Shown here piece after piece: positions 7,281 to 48,471 of a stretch of 52,653 nucleotides of DNA; the first letter of the stretch is position 1; each line of letters starts with the position of its first letter. The notes beneath the pieces were generated by a model that was not told where the DNA came from, did not search any database, and saw nothing but the letters and a program-made list of their open reading frames with translations. The translations under genes and the position numbers were made by a program. This DNA is from an uncultured Turicimonas sp. (GTDB lineage: Bacteria > Pseudomonadota > Gammaproteobacteria > Burkholderiales > Burkholderiaceae_F): NCBI GenBank assembly GCA_947854175.1, contig CANTYJ010000041.1, positions 1-52,653 of the forward strand. The letters are read 5' to 3'.

Positions 7281-8465
7281 TTAGTTCAGACCGGCTGCTT
7301 TTCTTAAAGTTGCTGCCTTATCTGTCCGTTCCCATGTAAATTCCGGTTCTTCTCTTCCAAAATGACCGTATGCGGCTGTCTTGCTGTAAATTGGTCTCTG
7401 CAAATCAAGCATTTTGATGATGCCTGCAGGACGCAAATCAAAATGTTCTTTGACAAGCTCTGCAATTTTTTCATCCGGAATTACGCCGGTACCTTCTGTA
7501 TACACGGTAATGTTTACAGGCTTGGCCACGCCGATAGCATAAGCAACCTGAATTTGGCACTGACGAGCTAAACCTGCGGCTACGATGTTCTTAGCGACAT
7601 AACGGCATGCATAAGCAGCTGATCTGTCAACCTTTGTCGGATCTTTACCGGAGAATGCACCGCCACCATGGGGGCAAGCACCGCCATAGGTGTCAACAAT
7701 AATCTTACGGCCGGTCAAGCCGCAGTCGCCCTGCGGACCACCAATAACAAAGCGCCCTGTCGGATTAATCAAGAATTTTGTATCTTTGAGCATTTCAGGC
7801 GGAAATACCGGCTTAATGATTTTCTCAATAACTGCCTGTTCGAATTCCGGCTTCATCTTATCGCCGTCACTCATTTCCGGGGAGTGCTGAGTAGAAAGCA
7901 CAACAGTTTCAACTGATTCAGGTCTCCCGTTAACGTAACGCATTGTCACCTGGCTTTTAGCATCCGGACGCAAATACGGCATTTCACCGCTACGTCTCAT
8001 CAAAGACTGCTGTTCAACCAGGCGGTGAGCGTAATAAATCGGAGCAGGCATCAGAGCGTCTGTTTCGTCACAGGCATAACCGAACATCAGGCCTTGATCG
8101 CCGGCACCCTTTTCGAGAGGATCGTCTTGGGCATTATTAACACCCTGAGCGATATCAGGGGACTGTTTGTCATAAGCTACCAACACAGCACAACCTTTGT
8201 GGTCGATACCGTAGCTACTGTCGTCATATCCGATTCTCTTTAAGGTATCGCGGACGATGTCAGTGTAGTTGACATTAGCAGTTGTGGAAATTTCTCCGGC
8301 CAGCATAACTGTCCCGGTTGTACAGAGAGTTTCTGCAGCGACACGGGCTGTCGGATCCTGTTCAAGAATTGCATCAAGAATTGCGTCGGAAATCTGGTCG
8401 GCGACTTTATCCGGGTGTCCTTCGGAAACCGACTCAGAAGTAAATAAATATTCGTCTTTAGACAT
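7281..8465 (-). CDS. metK: S-adenosylmethionine synthetase MetK
   Basis: About 394 residues with the family hallmarks [16 protein letters not shown] at the N-terminus, [16 protein letters not shown] near 115-130, and [20 protein letters not shown] near 255-275. It makes SAM from methionine and ATP. I place the start at the ATG at 8465, where the protein aligns with betaproteobacterial MetK and GGA lies about 10 bases upstream. The ATG at 8480 adds five residues and has no visible Shine-Dalgarno. A structured leader precedes it (see 8483-8610), and it is divergent from lpxL. Confidence 0.96.
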
Positions 8466-8482
8466 TTTGCTGTCATCCATAA

Positions 8483-8610
8483 ATAAAACTTAAAAAAGGA
8501 GACAGCGTCATTGAAGAAATACTTCAAGACGCTTTAGCGGTGTTTAGCCTCCAGGCAGCGCTCCGCAAGTTGTCCCTTAACTCAGCGCACTGACAAGAAT
8601 GTTCACTATA
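8483..8610 (-). promoter_or_regulatory. structured metK leader RNA, candidate SAM/SAH-responsive riboswitch
   Basis: On the minus strand a TATAGT -10-like element (8610-8605) is followed by a region rich in pairings. A GCGG/CCGC outer stem (8566-8563 with 8540-8537) encloses GGAGCGCTGC and a small GCC/GGC hairpin. AGCGC of this element can also pair with AGCGT at 8533-8529, the 5' arm of the next hairpin. That hairpin (8533-8504) has a 12-bp stem with one bulge and is followed six bases later by TTTTTT. GGAGCGCTGC, AGGCT and AAC..CGCT occur in the same order as conserved blocks of the SAH riboswitch, but the outer stem is arranged differently. Function is inferred. Confidence 0.45.
8504..8533 (-). 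terminator. strong hairpin in metK leader (attenuator candidate)
   Basis: AGCGTC+TTGAAG pairs with CTTCAA+GACGCT with a one-base bulge and a five-base loop. It lies about 40 bases before the metK start, and six Ts (8497-8492) follow after GTCTCC. The gap between stem and T-run makes it a weaker intrinsic terminator than the gene-end ones, but its position suggests attenuation of metK. Confidence 0.5.
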
Positions 8611-45406: not shown

Positions 45407-46549
45407 TTATTTCATCAACTTTTTAACGGTTTTAATATAAATTTCCAAACAGTTTTTGACCTGATAAGGATAACCATACTCATTATCTCCGTGCATATTG
45501 CCGCCGGAAGGACCAAAAGTCACCACAGGAATACCAAGAGAGACCGCTAAGATATTGGAGTCGCATATTGAAGGGTCGTAAGCACAGGGAAGGTTTTCTC
45601 CCGTAACTTCATGGAAACTTTCTCTTAATGCATTGACTAGCTCATGATCTTCTGGAACTGCAAAAGACTTCATGTACGGACTACTTCTAGGTTTTAATCT
45701 GACCTCGACTTTATCTGCCAAGCCCATTCTTTCAGCCAGTTCCTCGATCTGTTTAATACAGCTTTCCTCGTTTTCTCCCGGAACAACATAGCGGTCTAAG
45801 AAGATAAGGCAACTGTCGGGAACAATCAATGTGGCTGTGCTTCCGCCACACATGTACCGGACACACCAGGTTCCTTTGATTAGTTTAGGATGAGTCGCGG
45901 TTGGTAACGCCTCAATTGCTTCAGCCAACTTACCGGCAGTAATGATGGCATTTTCTCCGCTCTCAGGATAACGGCAAGTATGTCCGGCGCGGCCATGAAC
46001 AATAACTTCAAAACTTAATCTTCCACGGAATCCTACAGCCACATTGTCATACCGGCACTCTGCCATAATGGCATAGTCAGCTCCGATATTTCCTTCTTCC
46101 ACGAGCTGGTAAGTTCCTTTGCTCAGACCTTCTTCGTCAGCTACAAAACAGCCCAACAACCGCCCGGTAAACTCTTCTTTATGTTTGGAAAAATACTCAA
46201 ATACAGAAAGAATATCCGCAATGCCACCCTTCATGTCCATTGCACCACGACCATAAACCTTGCCGTCGATTTCAGTCGGTTTGAATGGATTCGTATTCCA
46301 ATTTTTTAGGTTAACCGCTACAGTGTCGATATGTCCGATTAACATCATTGTTTTACCGGGCTTTCCGCTATCTAAAACGCACCAAATGGATGGACGCTGT
46401 TTATCAGAATCGTCAGGGAAGTAACTGTAGTGAGGTTCTATTCCAAAACTTCTAAGTACCTCTGCTACATAGTCAGCGGCATTAACTTCGTGACCGTCAA
46501 CAGAATCAATACTGATTAGGTCGTACCATCTTTTAATTACTGTATCCAT
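45407..46549 (-). CDS. M20-family metallopeptidase (ArgE/DapE/YgeY-like)
   Basis: 380 residues. The metal site is visible: LIGHIDTV (about 70-77), GRGAMDMKGG (about 99-108), and ADEEGLSKGT (about 137-146, the catalytic DEE). The central dimerisation lid runs about 180-290. The family deacylates amino acids or cleaves dipeptides; YgeY-type relatives are the closest by overall layout. It starts 2 bases after the nhaC stop, which couples it to the antiporter. Confidence 0.88.
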   Translation of the reverse strand: MDTVIKRWYDLISIDSVDGHEVNAADYVAEVLRSFGIEPHYSYFPDDSDKQRPSIWCVLDSGKPGKTMMLIGHIDTVAVNLKNWNTNPFKPTEIDGKVYGRGAMDMKGGIADILSVFEYFSKHKEEFTGRLLGCFVADEEGLSKGTYQLVEEGNIGADYAIMAECRYDNVAVGFRGRLSFEVIVHGRAGHTCRYPESGENAIITAGKLAEAIEALPTATHPKLIKGTWCVRYMCGGSTATLIVPDSCLIFLDRYVVPGENEESCIKQIEELAERMGLADKVEVRLKPRSSPYMKSFAVPEDHELVNALRESFHEVTGENLPCAYDPSICDSNILAVSLGIPVVTFGPSGGNMHGDNEYGYPYQVKNCLEIYIKTVKKLMK

Positions 46550-46551
46550 GA

Positions 46552-47994
46552 TTATTTTCCTGTTGACAAAGCGGCGTTATTCATAATTTCCTGTTCTTTG
46601 AGCTTTTCATCTTCTTCCATCTTGGCCATGCCAATACCGGTTAAGGCATAAACCGCAGAAAGAATGATGGATAACCAAAGCATCGGCGCATAAGCTAAGA
46701 ATGCGATATTTGCTACACCTAGAGTTGAAGCAGTGTATGAACCTGTCGTTGACCAGGGAACCAACGGAGCCAAACCGGTACCGGTATCCAACATCATGCG
46801 CATCAAATTCTTTCTTTGGAGGTTATATTTCGGAAACATATCCTTTGTCATTGTTCCGACGACCGGATAGCTAACGTAGTAAGCACCGGTAATCATGAAG
46901 AATAGGGTATGCAGACACATAACACAGAAGGCCATGACTCTGCTGTTGCGCGCAAACTTAGTTACGTAATCGAGAAGTACTTCTGCAACGCCGGCTGTTC
47001 TTAACGGAGCTCCGAACATGGCAGCTGCCATCAACAATCCGATCGTACTCATCATGCTGGTGAATCCGCCTCTGTTAAGCATTTTGTCAACAAAGGTTGA
47101 ATCAGTATGGGTGGAGAAACCGCTATACATGTACTGCATTACGCTCTTTAAATCGGCGCCTTGCATAATCATGGCTAAAACGGCTCCAACTGCGATACCG
47201 GCGACAAATGTCGGGATGGTAGGCTTCTTCAGGACGATCAAAGCGATCACAACAAAAACCGGAAGAAGAGCTATAGGATTGAGATTAAAAGTTTTCTCGA
47301 TCGTTGAAAGAATTTCTGTATAAGTTGCACTTTCCATTGATCCGGAAGTAAAACTTAACCCGTAAACAAAGAAAAAAACCAAACTAATAATATAGGCCGG
47401 ACCGGTTGAAATCAGAGAATGTTTGATCCCTTCAAGCAACGGAGTGTCAGTCACAGTCGCAGTGATAACAGGTGAATCGCTTAAAGGAGAGATTTTATCG
47501 CCGAAGAATGCTCCGACACAGACAGCACCTGCTGCAGCTTCGACCGGAACGCCCAAACCTTCTGCAACACCCATACAGGCTACACCTACGGTGGCCAATG
47601 TACCCCAAGAGGTTCCGGCCAATGTACTCATCAATGTACAAAGAATACAAGCAACCGGTAAGAAAAGTTGCGGTGTAATGACCTTCATACCGTAGTAGAT
47701 CATGACCGGGATCGTACCTGAAGCCATCCAGGCAGCGATTAACACGCCGACGGATAACAAGATTAACATCGCAACCAACATGGAAGCGATCATATCTTTA
47801 ATACCTTTTTGAATTTCGTTGTAAGCAATGCCGAATACGCAAGCCATCAAACACATGATGGCACCATCAACAGCCAAGACTATTCTGGCATTTACCTTTA
47901 AGGCCATTAACCCAAAAAAGATTAATGCAATGCCTAGAAAAAGCATCGACATAGCTTGCCAGGGGGCCAATTTTTTAGTTTCCGATTGACTCAT
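46552..47994 (-). CDS. NhaC-family Na+/H+ (or amino-acid) antiporter
   Basis: 480 residues with about 11-12 transmembrane helices. TLAGTSWGTLATVGVACMGV and FFGDKISPLSDSPVI are the NhaC core blocks; GTGLAPLVPWSTTGSYTA lies near the C-terminal third. NhaC members exchange Na+ for H+ or carry small acids such as malate/lactate or amino acids. Pairing with the peptidase suggests uptake of its substrate, but this is inference. A good Shine-Dalgarno (GGAGG) lies just upstream of the start. Confidence 0.88.
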   Translation of the reverse strand: MSQSETKKLAPWQAMSMLFLGIALIFFGLMALKVNARIVLAVDGAIMCLMACVFGIAYNEIQKGIKDMIASMLVAMLILLSVGVLIAAWMASGTIPVMIYYGMKVITPQLFLPVACILCTLMSTLAGTSWGTLATVGVACMGVAEGLGVPVEAAAGAVCVGAFFGDKISPLSDSPVITATVTDTPLLEGIKHSLISTGPAYIISLVFFFVYGLSFTSGSMESATYTEILSTIEKTFNLNPIALLPVFVVIALIVLKKPTIPTFVAGIAVGAVLAMIMQGADLKSVMQYMYSGFSTHTDSTFVDKMLNRGGFTSMMSTIGLLMAAAMFGAPLRTAGVAEVLLDYVTKFARNSRVMAFCVMCLHTLFFMITGAYYVSYPVVGTMTKDMFPKYNLQRKNLMRMMLDTGTGLAPLVPWSTTGSYTASTLGVANIAFLAYAPMLWLSIILSAVYALTGIGMAKMEEDEKLKEQEIMNNAALSTGK

Positions 47995-48127
47995 TTGTTC
48001 CTCCAGAGAGTTCTGTTTATTTTTAACTGGAGAGAGCCGACGGTCTCAACGATGAGAAGTTTCCTTGGGATTGGGAATATTTAAATTGTTGAGTTCCGAT
48101 AGCGCTCCACTTATAAAAGTGACAGTC

Positions 48128-48146
48128 CATAAGATATTTTCTTATG
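48128..48146. promoter_or_regulatory. palindrome upstream of the NhaC operon
   Basis: CATAAG (48128-48133) and CTTATG (48141-48146) form a 6-bp inverted repeat around seven A/T bases, about 135 bases upstream of the antiporter start. A second inverted repeat, GTTTCCG/CGGAAAC, lies at 48152-48184. Either could be an operator; no regulator gene is adjacent. Confidence 0.35.
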
Positions 48147-48471
48147 TCCCAGTTTCCGGAATTACGGAGAAAATTTACGGAAACTTCGGCAATTTTTCCT
48201 TTCAGTCTTCTATTGTCTCCGTTTATTTTAAGAAGGCCTACTGATAAAAATTGCTCCTCTACCTTTCAAAGATAATGTTAGTCCTAAAATGTAAATAAAT
48301 TTAATTTGATTTTTTTACTTAACTAAATATTTTCCCTTAGTGACATCCGGGAATCAAAAGCTGAATCCACAAGCTAATTCAGAGGCAATGCTAATCTTCT
48401 ATTGTTTTTTCGCCTGAAACCATTTAATTTGTTCATAGGATTCTATTTTCTTCGCACCTCCCAGGATGGAT

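Follow-up and report, generated by a model that had tools for sequence, protein, structure and literature searches.

A putative metK-specific variant of the SAM-II riboswitch superfamily in the leader of a Turicimonas metK gene and in related Burkholderiales

Locus organisation and architecture of the leader element

The window analysed here is a stretch of 52,653 nucleotides from the genome of an uncultured Turicimonas sp. The first-pass annotation, made from the letters of this stretch, had proposed metK as the gene downstream of a riboswitch-like leader, and the encoded protein indeed matches TIGR01034 at 577 bits. The longest open reading frame of metK begins at 8480, upstream of the likely start codon (Table 1). 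A structured and conserved RNA occupies positions 8528-8588 of the minus strand in the leader of this gene and, judged from its sequence, it folds into a SAM-II-like H-type pseudoknot. The pairing of GCGG with CCGC (8566-8563 with 8540-8537), drawn in the first-pass annotation as an outer stem, is real and covaries, but it is the helix of the pseudoknot, whose strands alternate with those of P1 (8588-8584 with 8562-8558), and it does not enclose the element. A hairpin GAGTT/AACTT within P1 was also considered and was rejected, as it is lost in the leaders carrying GATTTA or GGTTTA. The TATAGT hexamer, found by eye, also lies shortly upstream of P1 in the nearest relatives; a consensus promoter scan made no call at 8605..8610. 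Elsewhere in the window, a lysine riboswitch (RF00168, 106.9 bits; 48092-48269, minus strand) precedes a transporter-like open reading frame of 480 amino acids (46552-47994) and a peptidase-like open reading frame (45407-46549).

Table 1. Features of the metK leader and of the start of metK in the window.
Feature	Position	Strand	Remarks
metK, methionine adenosyltransferase	7281..8480	-	TIGR01034, 576.9 bits (cut-off 309.4)
Probable metK start codon (MSKDEYLF...)	8463..8465	-	appears to agree with the start in a same-genus relative (L002)
Ribosome-binding region of metK, GGATGACAGC	8469..8478	-	
Putative anti-Shine-Dalgarno strand, GCTGTCTCC	8498..8506	-	overlaps hairpin arm
Competing hairpin, AGCGTC...GACGCT	8504..8533	-	takes up the aptamer 3' end
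Possible P2a 3' strand, GTC	8528..8530	-	
P2b 3' strand CCGC and ligand-pocket UAAA	8533..8540	-	C40 C41 G42 C43 U44 A45 A46 A47
Variable linker L3	8541..8557	-	varies in length and sequence; hairpin in many relatives; contains the chance SAH-like AGGCT
P1 3' strand, AGCGC	8558..8562	-	
P2b 5' strand, TTGCGG	8563..8568	-	U20 U21 G22 C23 and two extra positions, R24 G25
Possible P2a 5' strand, GAC	8572..8574	-	paired in 90% of cells; nearly invariant
L1 / triplex third strand, GAGTTA	8578..8583	-	SAM-II G8, A9, U10 (replaced by G), U11, U12, A13; pocket roles from PMC3764141 and PMC6061858
P1 5' strand, GCGCT	8584..8588	-	96-100% paired in 79 sequences
Possible -10 element, TATAGT	8605..8610	-	by eye; weak

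Conservation and covariation

Conservation of the core among relatives, on which the earlier proposal had been made to depend, was followed in the window's family, where metK was detected in 62 of the 67 genomes; the leaders were chosen via the protein, and the core was found in all 62. It opens with a short P1 stem and GAGTTAA (or GATTTA/GGTTTA); after a short spacer that varies come ACAACTTGC with RG and the returning strand of P1, and a linker of no fixed length leads to YYGCTAAAGCG[TC]C. In brief, the core reads GAGTTAA..ACAACTTGC..GCTAAAGCG; three leaders show the variant form GATTTATGACCAATTGC. GCTAAA as well as U11 and U12 are retained in 62/62 leaders, while position 10 is a G in 52, including that of the window, and a U in the other 10.

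Covariation was analysed in an alignment of 79 sequences; the pattern by which these were selected fixes the core, and R24/Y41 to purine/pyrimidine, so core conservation is quoted from the 62 protein-chosen leaders only. The covariation expected of the leader stems is present in both P1 and the pseudoknot helix P2b, in the 79 sequences and along the metK tree. Indeed, the outer pair of P1 is UA in 37 sequences, CG in 17, AU in 11 and GC in 10, that is, all four Watson-Crick types, and the pseudoknot pair R24-Y41 is GC in 54, AU in 23 and GU in 2, with 100% pairing. On the metK protein tree, R24 underwent five independent G to A changes, each accompanied by a C to T change at position 41 (4.9 of 5 over random pairings; with five pairs, a p of 0.05 is out of reach of a sign test). 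When the partners were slid by one to three columns, pairing fell from 96% to 26-51%. P2a (GAC:GUC) hardly varies, so that covariation speaks neither for nor against it and this helix is regarded as unproven.

Relation to SAM-II riboswitches

A covariance model of the family elements (R1) found matches in 231 of 399 genomes of the order, upstream of metK, metZ, metX, metH and metN. A second model (R2) was built from beta-proteobacterial metX/metZ/metH leaders only, all from families other than that of the window; such leaders match the Rfam SAM-II family (RF00521), several of the R2 training leaders above its gathering score. R2 picks the window element (E 9.5e-7 in the window; 4.4e-5 in the genome, where it is the best match and the next has an E of 0.69) and recovers 62/62 family metK leaders. 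Because this model is independent of metK leaders, its matches link the metK element to SAM-II. No further copy was detected in the window's own genome, where the next R1 and R2 matches are at or near chance; one of these (L191) sits in a coding-looking stretch.

Two observations count against this relation. RF00521 itself (gathering score 36 bits) detects neither the window element at E<=10 nor the metK leaders of 14 relatives, and the pocket nucleotide U10 is replaced by G. A scan with all families of Rfam 15 at E<=10 returned nothing on the minus strand of the leader and a chance CRISPR-repeat match outside it. In SAM-II riboswitches, U10-U12, U20, U21, G22, C23, G42, C43, U44 and A45-A47 have been reported to be completely conserved (PMC3764141), and the window keeps 12 of these 13 (U11, U12, U20, U21, G22, C23, G42, C43, U44, A45, A46 and A47). 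In SAM-V, the base pairing with the SAM adenine receives one hydrogen bond from U8, the equivalent of U10 (PMC6061858), and by analogy G10 could donate the same bond.

The substitution of a nucleotide reported as invariant in 52/62 family leaders, the contact made by its SAM-V equivalent and the association of the variant form with metK and of the canonical form with metX/Z/H could also be read as a SAM-II fold with a pocket (G10, longer P2b) adapted to a ligand other than SAM or to a clearly changed affinity for SAM. This is considered unlikely: the rest of the pocket is retained, U11 and U21 with their sulfonium-reading oxygens among it; metK leaders of one and the same family carry either U10 or G10; and the single hydrogen bond to U44 could be supplied in a similar way by G.

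On the preferred reading, the element is, by sequence, a metK-specific variant of the SAM-II superfamily, unrelated to the SAH aptamer. It shares with SAM-II/SAM_alpha (RF00521) the H-type pseudoknot, the UUGC...GCUAAA core, the G-N-N-UU of L1, the U44 bulge and the association with methionine/SAM genes. The metK form differs by U10 to G and G13 to A, by CAACUUGC instead of CAGCUUGC, by a P2b that is two pairs longer, one of them clearly covarying, by its position upstream of metK and not of metX/Z/H, by few terminators, by an anti-Shine-Dalgarno strand and by remaining below Rfam detection. SAM-V (PMC6061858) has the SAM-II pocket and translational control in common with it and may follow a canonical SAM-II copy in tandem; however, SAM-V belongs to another lineage, its Rfam model matches neither the window leader (E<=10) nor those of the 14 relatives, and its ribosome site lies within P2a, whereas that of metK would be masked by a separate strand. 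The SAM/SAH riboswitch of Rhodobacterales metK genes (RF01727) is likewise a short pseudoknot upstream of metK but differs in pocket and sequence, and its model has no match in the window leader (E<=10) or in the 14 relatives.

SAH-like blocks

A relationship to the SAH aptamer had been proposed on the grounds of three short blocks in SAH order, and these letters are present on the minus strand (GGAGCGCTGC at 8564-8555, AGGCT at 8550-8546 and CCGCT at 8540-8536). The likeness is nevertheless to SAM-II: the SAH model (RF01057) has no match in the leader at E<=10 or in the metK loci of the 14 relatives. The arrangement GGAGCGCTGC...AGGCT was found only in the window and one same-genus relative (L001, L002) and is missing from the other family leaders, which points to a coincidence of the window's genus. 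Genuine SAH riboswitches occur elsewhere in the family, RF01057 scoring above its cut-off in 38 of the 67 genomes, in some of them just downstream of metK (G031, G032), but the window's genus has none, and in no genome is one of them the leader of metK; the metK leader also differs from them in fold, sequence and genes. Homology to the SAH riboswitch was rejected, the model being silent at the metK leader yet working elsewhere in the family, and a variant or relative of that riboswitch is the least probable of the explanations considered, with almost no weight left to it.

Predicted control of metK

Two mutually exclusive folds at the 3' side of the element, as suggested in the first-pass annotation, do exist, but the alternative drawn there for the window, between AGCGC and the downstream hairpin, is not conserved in relatives. 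The conserved alternative pairs AGCGTC, at the 3' end of the aptamer, with GACGCT, in competition with an anti-Shine-Dalgarno pairing. A partner of the GACGCT type (G[AG]CGC[TCA]) lies 17-96 nt downstream in 49/62 family leaders; for 13/62, no assignment of the expected pairings was reached. The duplex of GCTGTCTCC with the GGATGACAGC region reaches -15.0 kcal/mol in the window, and the corresponding duplexes range from -13.4 to -15.3 kcal/mol in the seven nearest leaders. Anti-Shine-Dalgarno strands paired with their own partners score -8.76 against -7.91 (sd 0.29) with swapped partners (12 of 5000 permutations, an optimistic number since the sequences are related), and from clade to clade a change in one strand is matched in the other, GCUCGUUCC going with GGAAUGUAGC. 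Plain thermodynamic ensembles gave no general difference in Shine-Dalgarno accessibility (means of 0.17 free and 0.16 with the aptamer folded) and were discarded as proof of a switch, which therefore rests on the conservation of the pairings, strongest in the window's clade.

The hairpin at 8533-8504 and the TTTTTT that follows it, after a gap of 6 nt, are present as described earlier, and they could suggest that a conserved RNA controls metK without a ligand, either through a terminator hairpin or as a leader to which a protein binds. That explanation is quite improbable: the hairpin is not a conserved terminator, no intrinsic terminator was called at 8504-8533, terminator-like sites follow 14/62 family metK leaders against 34/39 metX/Z/H leaders, and the core of the aptamer is a SAM-II core. 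The first two of these counts, together with the 14/62, led to the rejection of termination as the mechanism at metK.

Instead, the platform appears to act on translation through the anti-Shine-Dalgarno strand. In the proposed mechanism, P1 (8588-8584/8562-8558) and P2b (8568-8563/8540-8534) would build a major-groove triplex with GAGUUA of L1, and this triplex is expected to hold SAM in the manner of SAM-II and SAM-V. With SAM bound, the aptamer 3' end UAAAGCGUC would be held in the pseudoknot and GACGCU (8509-8504) left without a partner; GCUGUCUCC (8506-8498) would then pair with the ribosome-binding region GGAUGACAGC (8478-8469), and translation of metK would go down. At low SAM, AGCGUC (8533-8528) would pair with GACGCU; the anti-Shine-Dalgarno strand would thereby lose the GCU that belongs to both, and the start would be freed. 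SAM-II and SAM-V are both repressing classes (PMC9373788, PMC6061858), and we infer SAM as the ligand, an OFF direction and control at the translational level.

Conservation, P1/P2b covariation, the relation to SAM-II, gene association and the competing pairings, all established by sequence comparison, bear out the earlier view of the metK leader as a conserved, covarying, riboswitch-like RNA that is a variant and not a textbook member of its class. We consider it probable, at roughly 0.8, that this leader senses SAM as a riboswitch of the SAM-II superfamily, in a form specific to metK, and lowers translation when SAM is bound.

Relation to earlier reports

SAM-II has been known in beta-proteobacteria since 2007 (PMC2258182), and translational SAM-II and SAM-V are also known. 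A survey published in 2014 left metK without a known regulator in beta-proteobacteria, the search for one having failed (PMC4239095); the element described here would directly fill this gap in many Burkholderiales, among them Burkholderia, Bordetella, Achromobacter, Ralstonia and Sutterella. Since beta-proteobacterial metX/metZ/metH leaders match RF00521, the 'metXZ element' of the same survey (Leyn et al. 2014) is most likely SAM-II. No SAM-II type element upstream of metK in beta-proteobacteria was found reported in the open full-text literature and, as far as that literature shows, the novelty lies in the association with metK, in the altered pocket and pseudoknot and in how widely the element occurs.

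Gene association and subtypes

A search of named genomes with the exact metK-form core pattern gave at least 119 stretches. Among the 80 loci listed, from genera such as Burkholderia, Bordetella, Ralstonia, Cupriavidus and Sutterella, metK follows in 77, the contig ends in two and a different gene follows in one. The subtypes were compared in 52 context-checked matches, namely 13 metK and 39 metZ/metX/metH leaders: the canonical GAUUUGA/CAGCUUGC form was found in 0/13 of the former and 39/39 of the latter, one metZ leader of the canonical set having GAGUUGA, and terminator-like sites follow 3/13 metK copies against 34/39 canonical copies. The canonical form stands upstream of metX, metZ, metH and metN and the variant form upstream of metK, which amounts to two SAM-II subtypes within one genome that differ in the gene they precede and, it appears, in the level of control. 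One might speculate, at rather long odds, that the metK leaders make up an aptamer class of their own on a SAM-II scaffold, in which G10 and the longer P2b alter the set point or the ligand; if so, the SAM-making and methionine-making genes of one cell would respond differently.

Outside the order, matches within the phylum come mainly from a single family of its class, where the gene that follows is a different one. In five loci of another family of this class (L362-L366), SAM-II-like elements precede an uncharacterised open reading frame of about 100 amino acids; RF00521 matches none of them, and the Pseudomonas sRNA P11 is close by in two. Among relatives of the order, metK-type copies were also observed before an open reading frame of about 100 amino acids starting with MYDC or MFDC (L117, L119, L125, L126, L129, L131, L134, L136, L137, L141, L143). 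Several of these copies are the downstream member of a tandem pair, the upstream member being canonical SAM-II by score in L117, and the tandems resemble the SAM-II/SAM-V bi-mechanism tandems; the encoded protein has no Pfam match (one scanned), and a MatE-family transporter comes next in most loci. Another variant, with a longer P2b (e.g. CCAG/CTGG), precedes an open reading frame of about 60 amino acids with the motif YExRFGxxPxWL and no Pfam match (one scanned) in L153, L154 and L171. Furthermore, the Rfam 'sRNA' RF02424 (Bp2_287) matches the strand opposite to SAM-II leaders, as at metN in L169 (1330-1473, plus strand; 45 bits, sub-threshold) and in other loci, and because it matches the opposite strand it may be an antisense reading of a SAM-II leader.
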